Origin: Burkholderiaceae bacterium
GTDB lineage: Bacteria > Pseudomonadota > Gammaproteobacteria > Burkholderiales > Burkholderiaceae_C
Length of the DNA stretch: 64,000 nt
Direction of reading: 5' to 3'
NCBI GenBank assembly: GCA_019745555.1
Contig: JAIESX010000009.1
Coordinates: forward strand, 1 to 64,000
Made by a program: the position numbers and the translations under genes. Of the stretch, positions 5,071 to 14,378 are shown one piece after another. The first letter of the stretch is position 1. Every line of letters starts with the position of its first letter. The notes below the pieces were generated by a model that was given only the letters and a program-made list of their open reading frames with translations, was not told the DNA's origin and did not search any database.

Positions 5071-6441
5071 TCAGGGCCGGGCCAGCGCGGTCAGCGTACG
5101 CACGTCGGCTGTGCCGGCCAGCTTCCAGCAGGCGGCGATCAGCGCGTTCGTCCTGCTCTTGCCGATCACCGGGTCGGACAGGTCGTGGAACTTGCTCTCG
5201 AGCATGGCGTCGGTCATGGGGTTCTCGAGCGAGCCGATGGCGTGCCGGACGAACACATGGACCTGGCGGCCGTCCTTGAGTAAGGCGGTCACGTCCACGC
5301 TGGCCTCGGCCATGTGCTCGTCCACCGTGGCCACGACCTTGCGACGCAGCGCGACCATGTCGGGGCGGTTCACGATGACGTCGCTGTACTGCTCCTCGCC
5401 CGCCTTGCCGAACATCAGGCCGCAGGCGCAGCCGTGGTAGACGCTGAACTTCGCGCTCAGGCCGTCGGCCGGCTCCTTCTTGCCCGTGAGCTCCAGCACC
5501 AGGGAGTGCACCTTGAGCTCGATGCGCTCGATCTCCTCGGGCTTCACGCCCTGGGCGCGCAGCTGGGCGCAGGCGTCGATGCTGGGGTGGATCACGATGC
5601 CGCAGGCAAAGGGCTTGTAGCTGTTGTAGGAGATCTCGAAGCGCTGGCCCAGCTCGTCGGTGATCTCGTTCCAGGCGTACTTGGTCGAGACGGTCTGGAT
5701 CATGCCGCGCGGCGCTTCCAGTGCCCTGGGGCTGGCCGTGTAGCCCTGGCTGGCCAGCAGCGCGGACATCAGGCCCGCGCGCGCCGCGCCGCCCGGATGG
5801 AAGGGCTTGGTCATGGTGCCGAACTGCTCCCGCACACCGATGGGTTGCGAGGCCGCGATGCCCAGCGCCATGGCGGTCTTGTGCTCGTCCAGGCCCAGCA
5901 GGCGCGCGCAGCCGGCGGCCGCGCCCAGCGTGCCGGTGGAGCCGGTGATGTGCCAGCCGCGGTCGTAGTGCTCGGGGTACATAGTGTTGCCCACGCGGCA
6001 GGACACGTCGATGCCCAGCACCAGCGCGTCGATCACGGCGCGGCCGGACAGGCCCCGGTGCTCGGCCAGCGCCAGCACGGCCGAGGCCACGGGGCCGGCC
6101 GGGTGGATGATGGTCTTGAGGTGGGTGTCGTCGAAGTCGAAGGTGTGCGAGCTGATGCCGTTGATCAGCGCGGCACCGGCCATGTCCACCTGCTCGGCGC
6201 GGCCCAGCACGCTGGCCTGCGGTGCGGGTTGCAGCATCTGCACGGCGCCCAGTGCGGCGTGTACGGATTCATGCTGCGCGGCGCCCACGGCGCAACCCAG
6301 CCAGTTGAGGAAGGTGCGGTGTGCCTCATGCTCGACCGCGTCGCTCCAGCCCCTGGAGGGATGCGTGGCGACATGGCGGGCCAGGGTCTGGGTGACGGGC
6401 GGGGCGTGGTGGTCGGCGGGGACCTGGGTGTTGCGGGCCAT
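5071..6441 (-). CDS. MmgE/PrpD family protein (2-methylcitrate dehydratase-like)
   Basis: The 456-residue protein carries the family features: FDFDDTH near residue 100, HPAGPVASAVLAL just after, HITGSTGTLGAAA around 165 and KPFHPGGAARAGL around 210. Members include PrpD 2-methylcitrate dehydratase, MmgE and cis-aconitate decarboxylase-like enzymes, so a hydro-lyase acting on a tricarboxylic acid is expected. No prp genes are nearby, so the methylcitrate cycle assignment is not supported by context. It is divergent from egtD, with about 130 bases between them. Confidence 0.85.
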   Translation of the reverse strand: MARNTQVPADHHAPPVTQTLARHVATHPSRGWSDAVEHEAHRTFLNWLGCAVGAAQHESVHAALGAVQMLQPAPQASVLGRAEQVDMAGAALINGISSHTFDFDDTHLKTIIHPAGPVASAVLALAEHRGLSGRAVIDALVLGIDVSCRVGNTMYPEHYDRGWHITGSTGTLGAAAGCARLLGLDEHKTAMALGIAASQPIGVREQFGTMTKPFHPGGAARAGLMSALLASQGYTASPRALEAPRGMIQTVSTKYAWNEITDELGQRFEISYNSYKPFACGIVIHPSIDACAQLRAQGVKPEEIERIELKVHSLVLELTGKKEPADGLSAKFSVYHGCACGLMFGKAGEEQYSDVIVNRPDMVALRRKVVATVDEHMAEASVDVTALLKDGRQVHVFVRHAIGSLENPMTDAMLESKFHDLSDPVIGKSRTNALIAACWKLAGTADVRTLTALARP

Positions 6442-6570
6442 GGAGGATGTTTGCTATGAAATTGCTAGCGATCAGACATCGTCAGAAAGTCGGCAGATTC
6501 TAGGCCGCCCCAGGTCACCGGGTGCAAACCATGAGCGGGTGATCCGGTATGGCGAGCTATAGTGCCGCCC

Positions 6571-7536
6571 ATGACGGCCATCGCCTTGCGCCAGCCCCGT
6601 TTCCTGCAACTGCACCAGAGCGATTCCGCGGCCCTGCGCGCCGAGCTGCTGGCCGGACTCATGGCCGTGCCAGCGCGCATTGCCCCCAAATACTTTTACG
6701 ACGCCCTCGGTTCGCGCCTGTTCGACGCCATCACCGAGCTGCCCGAGTACTACCCTACGCGCACCGAGGCCGTGCTGATGGCCGAGCACGGTCCGGCCAT
6801 TGCGCAGCGTGTGCCGCGTGGCGCGACGCTGGTGGACCTGGGCGCGGGCAACTGCGAGAAGGCCGGCCGGCTCTTCGAGCTGCTGCAGCCGGCGCGCTAC
6901 GTGGCCGTGGACATCTCGGCCGATCATCTGCGTCATGCACTGCACTGCCTGCAACGCCAGTTTCCCGCGCTCGACATGCTGGGCGTGGGCATGGATTTCT
7001 CCAGCCGTCTGGACTTGCCGCCCGAAGTGGGCGGAGGACCGCGCCTGCTGTTCTACCCGGGCTCGAGCATCGGCAACTTCACGCCCGGGGAGGCGCTGGT
7101 CTTTCTGCGCCAGGCGCATGCGGCTGCGCAGGGCGGTGGCTTGCTGATCGGGGTGGACCTGCGCAAGCCGCTGGATGTGCTGCAGCCGGCCTATGACGAT
7201 GCGCTCGGCGTCACCGCGGCCTTCAACCGCAATGTGCTGCTGCACCTCAACCGCCTGCTCGACAGCTACTTTTCCGTGCAGGACTGGCGGCACATCGCAT
7301 TCTTCAACGAGGCAGCTTCGCGCATTGAGATGCACCTGGAGGCCCGGCGCGCGCTCACCGTGCGCTGGCCCGGGGGGGAGCGGCACTTCGCCAGCGGCGA
7401 GCGCATCCACACCGAGAACTCGTACAAGTACGCGCTGGCCGATTTCCAGGCCCTGCTGGCCGCGGCTGGCTATCGGCGCATCGAGGCCTGGACCGATGCG
7501 CGGGCCTGGTTCGCCGTTTTCTGGGCTGAGGCCTGA
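6571..7536 (+). CDS. egtD: L-histidine N-alpha-methyltransferase EgtD
   Basis: This 321-residue enzyme makes hercynine (trimethylhistidine) from histidine and three SAM. Visible signatures are YFYDALGSRLFD and LPEYYPTRTE (residues 41-66), the SAM-binding DLGAGN (89-94), FYPGSSIGNF (about 156-165) and the C-terminal NSYKYALADF. Hercynine feeds either ergothioneine (through EgtB) or selenoneine (through SenA). The ATG at 6571 was chosen; a GTG nine bases earlier is possible. The next gene, a SenB-like glycosyltransferase, starts on the base after the stop codon, so these are one operon. No egtB or senA homologue lies in the window. Confidence 0.92.
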   Translation: MTAIALRQPRFLQLHQSDSAALRAELLAGLMAVPARIAPKYFYDALGSRLFDAITELPEYYPTRTEAVLMAEHGPAIAQRVPRGATLVDLGAGNCEKAGRLFELLQPARYVAVDISADHLRHALHCLQRQFPALDMLGVGMDFSSRLDLPPEVGGGPRLLFYPGSSIGNFTPGEALVFLRQAHAAAQGGGLLIGVDLRKPLDVLQPAYDDALGVTAAFNRNVLLHLNRLLDSYFSVQDWRHIAFFNEAASRIEMHLEARRALTVRWPGGERHFASGERIHTENSYKYALADFQALLAAAGYRRIEAWTDARAWFAVFWAEA

Positions 7537-8499
7537 GTGACACGTCCCCTCGTGCTCATTGCCAGCCCCGCGCTGGCCGAGGCCAATAACGGCAACTGGC
7601 AGACCGCCTGGCGCTGGTCGCGCCTGCTGGCGCCGCACTACCGCACGCAGATCATCCCGTCCTGGCAGGCAGGCGAGTACCCGCAGGCCGTGGCCCTGCT
7701 GGCCCTGCATGCGCGCCGCTCGGCGGACGTCATCGCCGCCTGGGCGCAGGCGCACCCGGGCCGAGGCTTGGCCGTGGTGCTCACAGGTACCGATCTCTAC
7801 CGCGACATCCGGCACGATGCCGCAGCCCAGCGTTCGCTGGCGCTGGCGCAGCGGCTTGTGGTGTTGCAAGAGCTTGGGCCGCAGGCCCTGCCCGCCGAGC
7901 ACCGCGCCAAGACGCGCGTGATCTTCCAGTCCACCACCACGCGGCGCTCCGCGGACAAGACCGGTGCGCGCCTGCGCGCCGTGATGGTCGGCCATCTGCG
8001 CGACGAGAAGGGACCGCAGACGCTGTGGGCCGCGGCGCGCCTGCTGCGTGACCGCCCCGACATCCGTATCGACCACATCGGCGAGGCGCTGGATCCGGCA
8101 CTCGGTGAGGCCGCGCGCGCCACAATGGCCGACTGCCTCGCCTACCGCTGGCTCGGCGGCCTGCCGCACGAGGCGGTGCGCCGCCACATCCAGCGCGCCC
8201 ACCTGCTCGTGCACTGCAGCCGCATGGAAGGCGGCGCCCACGTGCTCATGGAGGCCGTGTGCAGCGGCACGCCCGTGCTGGCCACGCGCATCGACGGCAA
8301 TGTGGGCATGCTGGGCGCGGACTACGGGGGCTATTTCCCTGTGGACGATTCCGCGGCCCTGGCACGTCTGCTGCGACGCTGTCGCGACGAGTCCGGCAGG
8401 GTTTTGGCCTTGCGGGCACAATGCGAGCTCCGCGCGCCGCTGTTCACTCCTGCAGCAGAACAGGCGGCCCTGCTTGCACTGCTCCAGGATCTGACATGA
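7537..8499 (+). CDS. senB: Selenosugar synthase SenB-like glycosyltransferase (TIGR04348 type)
   Basis: A 320-residue GT-B glycosyltransferase with a GTG start immediately after the egtD stop. It has NNGNWQTA near the N-terminus, the LTGTDLYRDI segment near residue 85, a VGHLRDEKGP strand near 150, and SRMEGGAHVLMEA with a downstream GTPVLATRIDGNVGMLG, the usual donor-binding part of the fold. SenB of the selenoneine pathway joins selenophosphate to a UDP-amino sugar to give a selenosugar. The assignment rests on family resemblance and on the gene pair egtD-senB-selD. Its stop overlaps the selD start (ATGA). The donor sugar is not determined by sequence. Confidence 0.8.
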   Translation: MTRPLVLIASPALAEANNGNWQTAWRWSRLLAPHYRTQIIPSWQAGEYPQAVALLALHARRSADVIAAWAQAHPGRGLAVVLTGTDLYRDIRHDAAAQRSLALAQRLVVLQELGPQALPAEHRAKTRVIFQSTTTRRSADKTGARLRAVMVGHLRDEKGPQTLWAAARLLRDRPDIRIDHIGEALDPALGEAARATMADCLAYRWLGGLPHEAVRRHIQRAHLLVHCSRMEGGAHVLMEAVCSGTPVLATRIDGNVGMLGADYGGYFPVDDSAALARLLRRCRDESGRVLALRAQCELRAPLFTPAAEQAALLALLQDLT

Positions 8500-9557
8500 A
8501 CGCCCCTGCCTTTCCCGCCGAACCCCGACTCACCTCGCTGTCACATGGCGGCGGCTGTGGCTGCAAGATCGCCCCGGGCGTGCTCTCCGACATCCTCAAG
8601 GGCAGCAACGGCCTGCCCATGCCGCCCGAGCTGCTCGTAGGCATCGAGACCGCGGACGACGCGGCCGTCTACCAGCTCAACGACGAGCAGGCCCTGATCG
8701 CCACCACCGACTTCTTCATGCCCATCGTGGACGATGCCTACGACTTCGGTCGCATCGCCGCCACCAACGCCATCTCCGACGTCTACGCCATGGGCGGCAC
8801 GCCCATCATGGCGCTGGCCCTGGTGGGCATGCCCATCAATGTGCTGAGCACCACCACCATCGGTCGCATCCTCGACGGTGGCCAGGCCGTGTGCAAGGCC
8901 GCGGGCATTCCGATCGCGGGCGGCCACACCATCGATTCGGTCGAGCCCATCTACGGCCTCGTGGCCCTGGGTCTGGTGCACCCCCAGCGCGTCAAGCGCA
9001 ATGCCGATGCGAAGGTCGGGGATCGCCTCATCCTCGGCAAACCGCTGGGCGTGGGCGTGCTTTCGGCCGCGCTCAAGAAGGAAAAGCTCGATGCCGCGGG
9101 TTACGCGCAGATGATCGCCACCACCACGAAGCTCAACACGCCCGGCCCCGAGCTCGCGGCGCTGGCCGGCGTGCACGCGCTGACCGACGTCACGGGCTTC
9201 GGCCTGGCCGGCCATGCGCTGGAGCTCGCGCGCGGTGCGAACTGCTCGGTGGAGATCGACTGGGCGCGCGTGCCGCTGCTGACCGGTGTGCGTGAGCTCG
9301 CGAGCCAGGGCTTTGTCACCGGCGCCTCGGGCCGCAACTGGGCCGGTTACGGCGCCTCGGTGACGCTGCCATCGGGCTTCGCCCCGGTGGACCAGGCCCT
9401 GCTGAGCGATCCGCAGACCAGCGGCGGCCTGCTCGTGAGCTGCGGCCCGGAGACGGTGCCGCAGGTGCTGGAGATCTTCCGTCGCCACGGTTTCGAGGCC
9501 GCGGCCGAGATCGGCGCCGTCACCGACGCGGCCCCGGGTCGCCTGCTGGTGCGCTGA
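8496..9557 (+). CDS. selD: Selenophosphate synthase SelD/SenC
   Basis: This 353-residue protein aligns along its length with E. coli SelD. It has the glycine-rich catalytic loop SHGGGCGCKI (Cys21, Cys23, Lys24), DDAAVY, TTDFFMPIVDD, the AGGHTID motif and the C-terminal DPQTSGGLL. It turns selenide and ATP into selenophosphate. In the published selenoneine cluster this enzyme is SenC, the selenium donor for SenB. Here it is translationally coupled to senB. The two formate dehydrogenases in this window use cysteine, so selenoprotein synthesis is not the local reason for it. It may also serve tRNA selenation or selenocysteine elsewhere in the genome. Confidence 0.93.
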   Translation: MNAPAFPAEPRLTSLSHGGGCGCKIAPGVLSDILKGSNGLPMPPELLVGIETADDAAVYQLNDEQALIATTDFFMPIVDDAYDFGRIAATNAISDVYAMGGTPIMALALVGMPINVLSTTTIGRILDGGQAVCKAAGIPIAGGHTIDSVEPIYGLVALGLVHPQRVKRNADAKVGDRLILGKPLGVGVLSAALKKEKLDAAGYAQMIATTTKLNTPGPELAALAGVHALTDVTGFGLAGHALELARGANCSVEIDWARVPLLTGVRELASQGFVTGASGRNWAGYGASVTLPSGFAPVDQALLSDPQTSGGLLVSCGPETVPQVLEIFRRHGFEAAAEIGAVTDAAPGRLLVR

Positions 9558-9558
9558 C

Positions 9559-11937
9559 TCAGCCGCGCAGCGTCATGATGGGCCAGCCCGGCTGGCGGGC
9601 CAGTTCGGCCAGGGCCTCGACCGTCAGCGGCCGGCTGTAGAGGTAGCCCTGATAGGCATGGCAGCCCAGGGCCTGCAGCGCCTGCTGCTGTGCCAGAGTC
9701 TCCACGCCCTCGGCCATCACCTGCAGCCCCAGGCTTTCCCCGAGCACGATGACCATGCGCGCGATGGCCGCGTCGTTCGGGTCCACCAGGATGTCCCGCA
9801 CGAAGCTCTGGTCGATCTTGAGCTGGTCCAGCGGCAGGCGCTTGAGGTAGGAGAGCGAGGAGTAGCCGGTGCCGAAGTCGTCGAGCGCAAAGCCCACGCC
9901 GCGTGCCTTGATGGCGTCCATCTTGGCGATCACCTCGTCCACATTGCTGATCAGCAGGCTTTCCGTGAGTTCGAGTTTGAGGCGTGCGGGCGGCGCGCCC
10001 GTGCGCTGCAGCACGGCCAGCACCTGCTCCACGAACTTCTCCTGCTGGAACTGCCGTGGGCTGACGTTGACCGAGAGCGTGAGATGGGCCATGCCCGGCT
10101 GCGTGGCCCAGAGCGCGAGCTGGCGGCAGGCCAGCTCCAGCACGTGCTCGCCCAGGGGCAGGATGAGCCCGGTCTCCTCGCTGAGCGCGATGAACTCGGC
10201 TGGTGGCACCAGGCCGCGCTGCGGGTGCTGCCAGCGCAGCAGGGCTTCGGCGCCGGCGACCAGGCCGCCGCGTTGCACCTGCGGCTGGTAGTGCAGCACG
10301 AACTGGTCCTGCTGCAGTGCGGCACGCAGGTCGCGCTCGAGATCGGCGCGGGCCAGCAGCAGGGACTGCATGCGTGGGTCGTAGAAGCGGATGGTGTTGC
10401 GCCCCGCATTCTTGGCCTGGTACATGGCGAGGTCGGCGCGTTTGATCGGCTCTTCCAGGTTTTCGACCTCGGCGCCGAAGAGCGTGGCCCCCAGGCTGGG
10501 TGTGCTGTGCACGTTGAGCGCGCGGATCTCGTAGAGCTCGTTGAGCGCGGTCAGGATCTTGCGGCCCACAATCTCGGCCTGGGTGGCCGCCTCGACGGCG
10601 TCACGGCTCAGGTCCTCGAGCATCACGACGAACTCGTCGCCGCCCAGCCGGGCCACGGTGTCGCCCTCGCGTACGCTGCTGGCCAGACGCTGCGCCACCT
10701 GGCGCAGCAGCAGGTCGCCCATGTCATGGCCATGGGTGTCGTTGAGGGTCTTGAAGTTGTCCAGATCGATGAAGAGCAGGGCGCCCAGGCGCTGGTGGCG
10801 CGCGCAGGCTGTCATGGCCTGCTCCAGGCGGTCCATGAGCAGGCGGCGGTTGGGCAGGCCCGTCAGCGGGTCGTAGAAGGCTAGGCGCTGGATCTCCTCC
10901 TCGGCGGCCTTGCGTGTGGTGATGTCGGTGCAGAAGGACAGGATGTAGCTCACGCCGTCGAGTTCGATCACGGAGCTGGAGATGCTGATGCGACGCAGCT
11001 CGCCGTTGCGGTGACGCCAGACCGTCTCGTGGTTCATGGTACGGCCCTGCCGTGACAGGGCCTCGCGGAACTGGGTGCGTGCCTGCATGTCGGACCACAG
11101 ACCGATCTCTACCGCCGTGCGCCCCTCGAGCTCCTCGCGGCTCCAGCCGAAGTCACGCACGAAGTTGTCGTTCACCGCCACGATGCGCCCCTCGGCCTGC
11201 GTGGCGATGGACCCGGCCACCGGATTGGCATTGAAGGTGGTGGCGAACTTGAGTTCGGACTGGCGCAGCACCTCATGCGCACGCGCCATCTCCTGCAGCC
11301 GTTCGCGGTACGCCTGCACCAGGTAGATCACCAGCGCCGCCGACAGCAGCAGCACGAAGCTCTGGGCAATGCCGTGCAGCAGCGGGGGCGAGGGCGGAAC
11401 GACCGGCAGCCAGCCCAGCATGTCGGCAGCGATCAACGCCACGGTAGCAACGATGGTGATGCCCACGGTGAGCAGCGCAGCCCGCGTGCCCACCACCCAG
11501 CCGAGGAAGATGACGACGATGGGCAGGGCGTAGTAGATCGGTGTACGCACGCCTTCGTGAAATGCGGACAGCCCCATGATGCAGAGCCAGACCCCGCTGG
11601 CCATCCAGTAGATGCCCAGCCGGTAACGCCGGCGCCACAGCAGCACCGTACCGACCAGGGCCACGCCCGCCATGGCCAGCTGGCCCCAGGCCTGGGAGGC
11701 GTGCGCAGGCAGGAACCAGAAGATCACGGCCGCGAAGCAGGCCGTGCCGGCCAGGATGGTGAGGATCGCGTAGTGGAGGAAGGTCAGCGTCGGCTGCCAG
11801 GTGATGCGGTCAGCGACATACTCCTGCGGCGTGCGATCGGGTTCTGGTGTGGTGATGATCGGCCTCTGTGCTCTTGGGCCGGGCGCCGCTGCCCGACCGC
11901 CAGCACCGATGCTGCGGGCTGCGGCGGCGGCGCTCAA
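9559..11937 (-). CDS. Membrane PAS-GGDEF-EAL protein (cyclic-di-GMP turnover), copy A
   Basis: A 792-residue protein: about six membrane helices (residues 50-210), a PAS domain (about 220-345), a GGDEF domain with RLGGDEF and an intact RxxD inhibitory site (REGD), then an EAL domain with GAEALLRW, DDFGTGYSSLSYLKRLPLDQLKIDQ and AEGVET. All key residues for both synthase and phosphodiesterase are present, so either activity is possible. The start is a TTG at 11937; the next in-frame ATG lies inside the membrane region. The gene is followed upstream by a close paralogue with the same start context, so this is a tandem duplication. Confidence 0.88.
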   Translation of the reverse strand: MSAAAAARSIGAGGRAAAPGPRAQRPIITTPEPDRTPQEYVADRITWQPTLTFLHYAILTILAGTACFAAVIFWFLPAHASQAWGQLAMAGVALVGTVLLWRRRYRLGIYWMASGVWLCIMGLSAFHEGVRTPIYYALPIVVIFLGWVVGTRAALLTVGITIVATVALIAADMLGWLPVVPPSPPLLHGIAQSFVLLLSAALVIYLVQAYRERLQEMARAHEVLRQSELKFATTFNANPVAGSIATQAEGRIVAVNDNFVRDFGWSREELEGRTAVEIGLWSDMQARTQFREALSRQGRTMNHETVWRHRNGELRRISISSSVIELDGVSYILSFCTDITTRKAAEEEIQRLAFYDPLTGLPNRRLLMDRLEQAMTACARHQRLGALLFIDLDNFKTLNDTHGHDMGDLLLRQVAQRLASSVREGDTVARLGGDEFVVMLEDLSRDAVEAATQAEIVGRKILTALNELYEIRALNVHSTPSLGATLFGAEVENLEEPIKRADLAMYQAKNAGRNTIRFYDPRMQSLLLARADLERDLRAALQQDQFVLHYQPQVQRGGLVAGAEALLRWQHPQRGLVPPAEFIALSEETGLILPLGEHVLELACRQLALWATQPGMAHLTLSVNVSPRQFQQEKFVEQVLAVLQRTGAPPARLKLELTESLLISNVDEVIAKMDAIKARGVGFALDDFGTGYSSLSYLKRLPLDQLKIDQSFVRDILVDPNDAAIARMVIVLGESLGLQVMAEGVETLAQQQALQALGCHAYQGYLYSRPLTVEALAELARQPGWPIMTLRG

Positions 11938-12011: not shown

Positions 12012-14378
12012 TCAGGGACGGGGCTCGATGACGGGCCAGCCCGGCTGCCGCGCCAGCGCCTCGAAGGCCTCCAGCGGGACCGGCCGGCTGTAGAGATAGC
12101 CCTGGTAGGCGTGGCAGCCCTGGGCCTGCAGGGCCTGCTGCTGCGCCGGCGTTTCCACGCCCTCGGCCAGCACCTCCAGGCCCAGGCTCTCGCCCAGCAC
12201 GATGACCATGCGCGCAATCGCCGCGTCGTTCGGGTCGACCAGGATGTCGCGCACAAAGCCCTGGTCGATCTTGAGCTGGTTCAGCGGCAGGCGCTTGAGG
12301 TAGGAGAGCGAGGAGTAGCCGGTGCCGAAGTCGTCGAGCGCGAAGCCCGGCCCGCGGGCCTTGAGGGCATCCATCTTGCGGATCACATCGTCGATGTTGC
12401 TGATCAGCAGGCTTTCGGTGAGCTCGAGCATCAGGCGCTGGGGCGGTGCGCCTGTGCGCTCCAGTACGGCCAGCACCCCGTCCACGAAGTCTTCCTTCTG
12501 GAACTGGCGCGCGCTGACATTGACCGAGAGCGTGAGGTGCGCCATGGCCGGCTGCGTGGCCCAGAGCGCGAGCTGGCGGCAGGCCTGCTCCAGCACCCGT
12601 TCGCCCAGCGGCAGGATCAGCCCGGTCTCCTCGGCCAGGGTGATGAACTCGCCCGGCGGCACCAGTCCGCGCTCCGGGTGAGGCCAGCGCAGCAGCACCT
12701 CGGCGCCGGTGACGCGCCCGCCGCGCTGCACCTGGGGCTGGAAGTGCAGCACGAACTGCTGGAGCTGCAGGGCCAGGCGCAGGTCGTGCTCCAGGTTGGC
12801 GCGTGCTGTCACCATGGCCTGCATGCGCGGGTCGAAGAAGCGCAGGGTGTTGCGTCCCGCGTTCTTGGCCTGGTACATGGCCAGGTCGGCGCGCTTGATC
12901 GGCTCTTCCAGGTTCTCGTGCTGTGCGCCGAACAGCGTGATGCCCATGCTGGGCGTGCTGTGCACCTGCAGCGGCCGGATGTCGTAGGGCTCGTTGAGCG
13001 CCGCCATGATCTTGCGTCCTACGTTCTCGGCCTGCTTGGCCGCGGTCATCGCATCCGCCGCGAGGTCCTCGATCATCACCACGAACTCGTCGCCACCCAG
13101 CCGCGCCACGGTGTCGCCCTCGCGCACGCCATCGGCCAGACGTGCGCTGACCTGTTGCAGCAGCAGGTCACCCTTGTCGTGACCGTGGGTGTCGTTGAGC
13201 GTCTTGAAATTGTCCAGGTCGATGAAGAGCAGGGCGCCCAGGCGCTGGTGGCGCGCGCAGGCCGCCATGGCCTGTTCCAGCCGGTCCATGAGCAGGCGGC
13301 GGTTGGGCAGCTTGGTCAGCGGGTCGAAGAAGGCCAGGCGCTGGATTTCCTCCTCGGCCGCCTTGCGGGCCGTGATGTCGGTGGTGTAGGCCAGGATGCA
13401 GGGCACGCCGTCGAGGTCGATGATCTCGCCGGCGATGCTCACATGGCGCAGCTCGCCATTGCGGTGGAGCCAGACGGTCTCGTAGTTCACCGTACGGCCA
13501 TGCTGCTTGAGCGTGTTGACCCACAGCTCGCGCTGGCTGGCATCGGGCCACAGGCCGGCATCCATGGCCGTGATGCCGCGAAGATCCGAGATCGACCAGC
13601 CGAAGTCACGTTCGAAATTGGCATTGGCCTCGATCAACCGCCCCTCGGCCAGGGTGGCGATCGAGGCCGCCGCGGGGCTGGAGCTGAAGGCAGTGGCGAA
13701 CTTGAGCTCGGACTGGCGCAGCACCGCGTTGGCGCGCCGCATGTCCTCGCTCACCTGCTGCAGCGCCTGCAGCTGGCGACGGTAGGCCTGCACCAGGTAG
13801 ATCACCATGGCTGCGGTCAGGAGGTAGACGAAGATCTGGACCACGCCGTAGAGGATGGGCTCGGCAGGCAGCGAGGCTGGCAGCCAGCCGCGCGCGTCCG
13901 CCAGGATCAGCGCGATGGTGACGGCCGAGGTGGTGCCGGCAGCCACCACCGCCGCGGTCGTGCTGATCATCCAGCCCAGCAGGAAGATGACCAGGGGATA
14001 GACGTAGTAGATGGTGGACCGGATGCCGCCGTAGAGCGTGGCGATCACCGTCACCGAGATCCAGACCCCGCCGGCCAGCAGCAGCACGGCGTCACGCGTG
14101 CGGCCGCGGCGCAGCAGGCCCCACGACGTCAGTGCCACCAGCGACAGCATCCCCGGGCCCAACGCCCGGGGGATCTGGTCCGGCAGGAAGACGAAGATGA
14201 TGAAGATGAAGACCGCCGAGGCCGCCAGGATGGCGACCACGGTGTAGCGCAGGAAAGCCAGCGTGGGTTGCCACGCATAGGTGGCGGCGATCTCCTCGGA
14301 AGGTGCTGGTTGGGGTGGCGTCACATCGGGTGCCCGGGTATAGACCCCCATGCTGCGTGCTTGGCACCCGGGGCTCAA
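12012..14378 (-). CDS. Membrane PAS-GGDEF-EAL protein, copy B
   Basis: A 788-residue paralogue of the gene downstream, with the same order of membrane region, PAS, GGDEF (RLGGDEF, REGD inhibitory site intact) and EAL. The EAL motif itself reads EVL (GAEVLLRW), a change tolerated in some active enzymes, while the metal-binding DDFGTGYSS segment and EGVET remain. The N-terminal membrane helices and the PAS domain differ more from copy A than the two catalytic domains do, suggesting different signals feeding similar outputs. A TTG start at 14378 mirrors copy A; an ATG at 14351 is an alternative. Confidence 0.88.
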   Translation of the reverse strand: MSPGCQARSMGVYTRAPDVTPPQPAPSEEIAATYAWQPTLAFLRYTVVAILAASAVFIFIIFVFLPDQIPRALGPGMLSLVALTSWGLLRRGRTRDAVLLLAGGVWISVTVIATLYGGIRSTIYYVYPLVIFLLGWMISTTAAVVAAGTTSAVTIALILADARGWLPASLPAEPILYGVVQIFVYLLTAAMVIYLVQAYRRQLQALQQVSEDMRRANAVLRQSELKFATAFSSSPAAASIATLAEGRLIEANANFERDFGWSISDLRGITAMDAGLWPDASQRELWVNTLKQHGRTVNYETVWLHRNGELRHVSIAGEIIDLDGVPCILAYTTDITARKAAEEEIQRLAFFDPLTKLPNRRLLMDRLEQAMAACARHQRLGALLFIDLDNFKTLNDTHGHDKGDLLLQQVSARLADGVREGDTVARLGGDEFVVMIEDLAADAMTAAKQAENVGRKIMAALNEPYDIRPLQVHSTPSMGITLFGAQHENLEEPIKRADLAMYQAKNAGRNTLRFFDPRMQAMVTARANLEHDLRLALQLQQFVLHFQPQVQRGGRVTGAEVLLRWPHPERGLVPPGEFITLAEETGLILPLGERVLEQACRQLALWATQPAMAHLTLSVNVSARQFQKEDFVDGVLAVLERTGAPPQRLMLELTESLLISNIDDVIRKMDALKARGPGFALDDFGTGYSSLSYLKRLPLNQLKIDQGFVRDILVDPNDAAIARMVIVLGESLGLEVLAEGVETPAQQQALQAQGCHAYQGYLYSRPVPLEAFEALARQPGWPVIEPRP

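Follow-up and report, generated by a model that had tools for sequence, protein, structure and literature searches.

The window analysed here, a 64,000-nucleotide stretch of the genome of a Burkholderiaceae bacterium, encodes a hercynine synthase directly followed by a selenosugar synthase and a selenide water dikinase. This raises the question of which enzyme, if any, joins the selenosugar to hercynine, as would be required for selenoneine. The founding paper on the selenoneine pathway is reportedly that of Kayrouz (2022, Nature). The operon and its neighbours are:

6562..7536, plus strand: egtD, L-histidine N-alpha-methyltransferase (hercynine synthase); TIGR03438, PF10017, PDB relatives
7537..8499, plus strand: senB, selenosugar synthase (Se-glycosyltransferase); TIGR04348, PDB 8jjn/8jjq/8fbx
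8496..9557, plus strand: selD/senC, selenide water dikinase; NF002098, TIGR00476, PDB 3u0o
5071..6441, minus strand: MmgE/PrpD family gene, divergent upstream neighbour outside the pathway; PF03972, PF19305
9559..11937, minus strand: GGDEF/EAL-type signalling gene (792-aa ORF, assigned by eye), convergent downstream neighbour outside the pathway

Comparison with curated families and solved structures gave clear identities for all three proteins. EgtD scored 377 bits against the NCBIfam equivalog TIGR03438 (cut-off 290.9), matched Pfam PF10017 and had the EgtD structures 4uy6 and 4pim as best PDB relatives. SelD reached 538 bits with NF002098 (cut-off 299) and 429 bits with TIGR00476 (cut-off 125), and its best PDB match was 3u0o (E 4e-94); near its N-terminus lies a GGGCGCK motif, whose Cys and Lys we take to be catalytic. 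The glycosyltransferase had been called SenB-like from the sequence alone, and it is indeed SenB-type: it scored 443 bits against TIGR04348 (cut-off 300), compared with 103 for the next family, and all four PDB matches were of SenB type (8jjn, 8jjq and 8fbx, E about 1e-119), the PDB search aligning it over its full length with the solved Variovorax paradoxus SenB structures. Residues N20, T23, R155, K158 and E231 were kept in 45/45 SenB rows, the window protein included, in a tree and alignment that held SenB rows only, so that a place outside the SenB clade could not show. The EGGAHV motif is present as well; the sections of PMC10891094 that were available tie this motif together with K158, N20, T23 and E231 to catalysis and donor binding.

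The egtD gene has two candidate starts (GTG at 6562 or ATG at 6571) and is separated by about 120 bases from the divergent MmgE/PrpD gene. Its stop codon (TGA, 7534-7536) is followed without a gap by the senB GTG at 7537 (junction TGAGTG), and senB and selD overlap by ATGA (8496-8499), the sole ATGA junction of the operon. These junctions agree with the first-pass annotation, which had described three genes with no gap or with ATGA overlaps. The genes egtD, senB and selD, whose products all pass their equivalog cut-offs, form a tight selenoneine-type operon in which hercynine synthase is coupled to SenB and SelD, a coupling already proposed in that annotation and confirmed here. As a separate observation, the convergent neighbour at 9559-11937 is adjacent to a gene for a similar large protein at 12012-14378 (both minus strand), and this GGDEF/EAL-like pair, recognized by eye, is probably a tandem duplication.

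To locate the joining enzyme, we searched the whole genome (G000), a 2.99 Mb draft in 57 contigs of 88.6% completeness, with the window on the 109-kb contig C52. The FGE-sulfatase domain common to SenA and EgtB was found in two proteins, encoded on contigs C45 and C54, and had no match on C52. The reported absence of senA/egtB is therefore true locally; genome-wide it does not hold, as C45 carries an intact, unlinked senA (G000:C45:18950-20230, minus strand; L004:6951-8231, minus strand) for a protein of 426 aa. This protein scored 496 bits against NF041186 (cut-off 420), and its top two PDB relatives were the selenoneine synthases 8k5i and 8ryz (E about 1e-108); OvsA (8e-61) and EgtB (1e-40) ranked lower. 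Against the EgtB model TIGR03440 it reached 239 bits and stayed below the cut-off of 360. The active-site check proposed in the first-pass annotation gave a SenA-type result, with 16/16 tested SenA-I positions kept, although these positions were picked after seeing the alignment; they include three His residues that we assume, from EgtB, to be iron ligands. The C54 protein was rejected as a SenA (72 bits versus the cut-off of 420), and EgtB was rejected as partner enzyme because neither the FGE-domain search nor the family models found one in the genome. The C45 SenA is thus the sole SenA/EgtB-type gene found there; at 88.6% completeness, the draft could lack a further SenA or an EgtB.

Based on these findings, we consider a selenoneine pathway that is complete but divided between two loci the best reading of the operon (probability about 0.88), with selenoneine as the most likely product. 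EgtD would trimethylate histidine to hercynine, SelD would provide selenophosphate, and SenB would couple it to a UDP-sugar, yielding the selenosugar that the unlinked SenA would join to hercynine, following the reaction scheme of PMC9814287. With egtD joined to senB-selD, one transcript would cover both the acceptor and the selenium donor, and the joining enzyme would be encoded apart. Gene identities, operon structure, intact frames, conserved residues and co-occurrence were established directly. Activity, product and joint expression of the two loci are what we infer from them. Three options had been offered for the missing gene, of which an unlinked senA was borne out; neither another joining enzyme nor the selenosugar as a product in itself is needed in a genome with an intact SenA. 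An ordinary pathway with senA elsewhere and plain selenoneine as product had also been envisaged, and of its two parts the intact senA was found, while plain selenoneine is the predicted product. Several observations count against a split pathway, among them the incompleteness of the genome, the choice of the 16 positions with the alignment in view, and another possible use of selD: selA was not found in the genome at E 0.001 and mnmH is present on contig C35, so selD may also serve tRNA selenation.

We next asked how often the layout recurs, using 120 genomes from the GTDB family of the window (labelled G; the window's genome is G000). Matches over the cut-offs were found for SenB in 44, SenA in 47, EgtD in 79 and SelD in 106 genomes. 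In 32 of the 44 SenB genomes, a senA or senA fragment lies within 5 kb of senB. Of these, 31 have it divergent beside senB on the opposite strand, the two family matches being separated by 52 to 157 bases, and the remaining one, G094, has it on the senB strand, 3.3 kb downstream. As this linkage is usual but not universal, it was not treated as defining the sen pathway. An egtD directly upstream of senB in tandem was found in six of the 44 (G000, G014 of the same genus, G002, G027, G115 and G094). All six have a SenA over the cut-off, located on another contig in five, the exception being G094. A senA located on another contig is also seen in G110, G040 and G052, which do not have the egtD tandem. 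No SenA reaches the cut-off in four SenB genomes (G108, G057, G036, G021); in G057, only about 120 bases of contig remain upstream of senB, which would cut off a divergent senA.

A second, named set comprised the best 80 of at least 314 SenB relatives from GTDB species genomes. Among these best 80, 14 loci showed the egtD-senB tandem, 45 a divergent SenA-I gene and 19 neither, and two were cut off upstream. The 14 tandem genomes among the best 80 are MAGs named as Curvibacter, Hylemonella, Rhodoferax, Polaromonas, Burkholderiales or Comamonadaceae bacteria, together with one Gammaproteobacteria and one Alphaproteobacteria bacterium; the closest relative among the matches listed was a Curvibacter sp. 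(90% identity). Each of the 14 has a SenA, which passes the cut-off in 13 and is broken across two frames in G120. It lies near the tandem in L197, whereas the other 13 loci have none in the flank examined, which is short in some. Because several records are shared (L146 = G002 and L209 = G040 among others), the two genome sets are not independent. No genome without SenA in the family survey or among the best 80 relatives carries egtD in tandem with senB. The egtD-tandem layout is thus a recurring variant of a known gene arrangement.

To place the unlinked enzyme, we built a SenA tree of 63 rows: V. paradoxus SenA, four EgtB controls and 58 of the 59 family-survey matches scoring 397 bits or more. 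G019 (split between frames) and two G041 fragments were left out, and matches below 397 bits lie outside the tree, so that G053 and G064:C22 (390-393 bits) are not in it. One clade, SenA-I, holds 24 rows (V. paradoxus SenA, 22 SenB-linked copies and one unlinked copy) at a support of only 81/82; its sister clade, SenA-II, holds 28 rows at 100/100. Seven rows are basal and the four EgtB controls fall outside. The SenA of the window's genome falls in SenA-II, where its neighbours are the G014 and G002 enzymes, and does not group with the V. paradoxus enzyme, which counts against the split-pathway reading. Nine of the 28 SenA-II copies are the sole SenA of a SenB genome: those of five tandem genomes, of G040, and of G101, G005 and G045, where the gene is divergent beside senB. 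Another 11 come from genomes without SenB over the cut-off (three of them narrowly miss the SenA cut-off, with scores of 402-411), and eight from genomes with another SenA over the cut-off. Among the tandem genomes of the named set, G127 encodes a SenA of the SenA-I type, with 16/16 positions. We know of no SenA-II enzyme that has been assayed.

This placement allows for an active SenA-II that uses the same inputs with a product other than selenoneine, made from another sugar donor, on another acceptor, or as ergothioneine from a thiosugar. The separation of SenA-II from SenA-I at 100/100 and the replacement of V. paradoxus H372 by D and A338 by V in 9/9 active SenA-II enzymes speak for such a product. 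However, active SenA-II members keep all 16 tested positions, G101, G005 and G045 have the gene in the usual divergent position next to senB, and hercynine can come from the egtD of the same operon, which together make a different product unlikely and leave selenoneine as the preferred one.

Since the 16 positions, which hardly vary in SenA-I, were selected with the alignment in view, the following contrast is descriptive. At least 14 of them are kept in 24/24 SenA-I, 7/7 basal and 9/9 sole-SenA SenA-II rows, each of the last nine, all from SenB genomes, keeping 16/16. The 19 other SenA-II copies, which come from genomes without SenB or accompany another SenA, all fall short of 14 (best 12, in G074), and only seven of them keep all three His. 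This loss of the active site in 19/28 SenA-II rows likewise weighs against the split-pathway reading, as does G134, a SenB genome whose only SenA over the cut-off is a SenA-II with 8/16 positions; G134 may be a counter-example to the pattern, or its SenA may have been lost from the assembly. In the named set, 14 full-length SenA-II proteins from SenB genomes keep 15 or 16 positions (G121 and G148 repeat G002 and G040), and the G120 fragment keeps all six that it covers.

The nine active SenA-II copies do not form one clade, and the tree requires at least five changes of state. A single origin of active SenA-II was rejected, as the forced clade was 178 log units worse (p-AU 3e-10), for a group named after the tree was seen. 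All 19 decayed copies have frames free of stops. By a simple counting method, seven pairs of decayed SenA-II had dN/dS values of 0.23 to 0.53. Four active SenA-II pairs, one of which approached saturation at silent sites, had 0.10 to 0.22, and two SenA-I pairs had 0.23 and 0.35. With values of 0.23 to 0.53, the decayed copies look constrained, some less than the active ones, and are not plain pseudogenes. In G103, G066 and G109, the decayed SenA-II gene and selD are immediate divergent neighbours, as though an intervening senB had been lost; selD lies about 2 kb from the decayed gene in G099 and divergent from the G053 copy (not in the tree), and elsewhere in other SenB-less SenA-II genomes. 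Tentatively, and with less than even confidence, we suggest that SenA-II may be a second selenoneine-synthase lineage that repeatedly became non-catalytic after loss of SenB or beside another SenA, its decayed forms taking a new role in selenium or hercynine biology, and that the window's genome holds an active member.

These patterns also bear on annotation. Eight of the 47 genomes over the SenA cut-off have no SenB over the cut-off, and their SenA proteins keep at most 9/16 positions. The curated SenA model alone therefore names selenoneine synthases in SenB-less genomes, and SenB plus the active site is the better joint test. Loci with decayed SenA-II in open frames include L125, L126, L127 and L131. 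Another SenA-like group that passes the SenA cut-off (L243, L244 and L256, from G149, G139 and G143) has one and the same altered set, with 11/16 positions kept, and each of these genomes also holds another, intact SenA.

It is very unlikely that the C45 SenA is non-functional in the pathway and that the operon yields selenosugar and hercynine as separate products. SenB genomes with neither SenA nor EgtD were indeed found, which shows that SenB can be kept without SenA: six of 33 named genomes, three of them Limnohabitans, had no SenA-type match at 1e-40 and no EgtD at 1e-10, and G036 and G021 had neither at 1e-40 (loci L204, L205 and L208 of Limnohabitans, L206, L212, L219, L079 of G036 and L080 of G021). 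Against separate products, the SenA of the window's genome is intact, egtD-senB-selD is repeatedly found together with an intact SenA encoded elsewhere, and the tandem never occurs in a SenA-less genome of the survey or of the best 80 of at least 314 relatives. In the three Limnohabitans loci, senB lies between a gene for a YedE-like membrane protein (below cut-off) and one for a pyridine nucleotide-disulfide oxidoreductase-SelD fusion, the neighbour families having been scanned in L204 only. Limnohabitans parvus carries senB and a SelD fusion, and the searches found neither SenA nor EgtD in it. Judged by gene content, these SenB-only loci are candidates for a selenosugar or another selenium product. 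Judged by their titles, none of the open-licence papers found on Limnohabitans and selenium deals with SenB-only loci. A selenosugar end product is thus better sought in genomes without SenA and EgtD than in that of the window, and as leads, the decayed SenA-II proteins and the genomes with SenB alone offer the greater novelty.

The senA locus has conserved neighbours of its own. In the window's genome, the genes flanking senA encode a TRAP transporter (DctM 302 bits, cut-off 268; DctP NF037995 61 bits, cut-off 50) as well as a TupA-like ABC transporter and a ModE-like regulator, these last two below cut-off. Near SenA-II genes (28 stretches, some short; families named by matching representatives to gene lists), a dctM relative was found in 13, a TupA-like gene in 11 and dctP in 10, in active and decayed cases alike. 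In 12 of the 14 tandem genomes among the best 80 of at least 314 relatives, the strand opposite SenA carries a dctQ-like gene, recognized by eye. Because the TRAP transporter neighbours are kept across genera, the senA locus is old, and a recent move of senA was rejected on the same grounds. That the split is an assembly artefact, with senA really near the operon, can be practically dismissed: the genome is a 57-contig draft with senB 7.5 kb from one end of its contig, but senA lies 19 kb inside a 74-kb contig among neighbours syntenic across genera, and the split is also seen in G014, G002, G027 and G115.

Compared with the sen cluster (senA-senB-senC) of V. paradoxus DSM 30034, the window's genome has the same SenB, SelD and SenA by family models and PDB relatives, and hercynine is the acceptor in the V. 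paradoxus pathway as well (PMC9814287; available sections of PMC10891094). Unlike in that cluster, senA is not beside senB, egtD is directly upstream of senB, and SenA is of the sister clade SenA-II. The aerobic ergothioneine pathway (EgtB/EgtD) shares EgtD, and SenA is of the EgtB-like family; in contrast, no EgtB was found in the window's genome, and SenB and SelD belong to selenoneine. The SelD-SelA/SelB and SelD-MnmH traits share selD, with mnmH present, but the window's selD overlaps senB and selA was not detected. In sum of features, the genome has a SenB with K158 and EGGAHV, a SelD coupled to senB, SenA and EgtD, with senA on another contig instead of clustered with senB. The pathway is already known, and the split layout with use of SenA-II is a variant of it, for which no report was found in the open-licence literature searched. 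Reading the operon as lacking an enzyme is tempting but wrong, and selenoneine producers can be miscalled incomplete when the cluster alone is inspected.

Transporters of putative selenate type also occur near senB. The window's own genome has no TIGR04553 protein over the cut-off of 250 (best 149). In L072 (3288-5939) and L074 (4017-6666), a PhnCDE-like ABC transporter is divergent from egtD-senB-selD, and its binding protein matches TIGR04553, 'putative selenate ABC transporter', with 409 and 412 bits. A relative lies in the flank examined of 35 of the 80 SenB loci (best 80 of at least 314).
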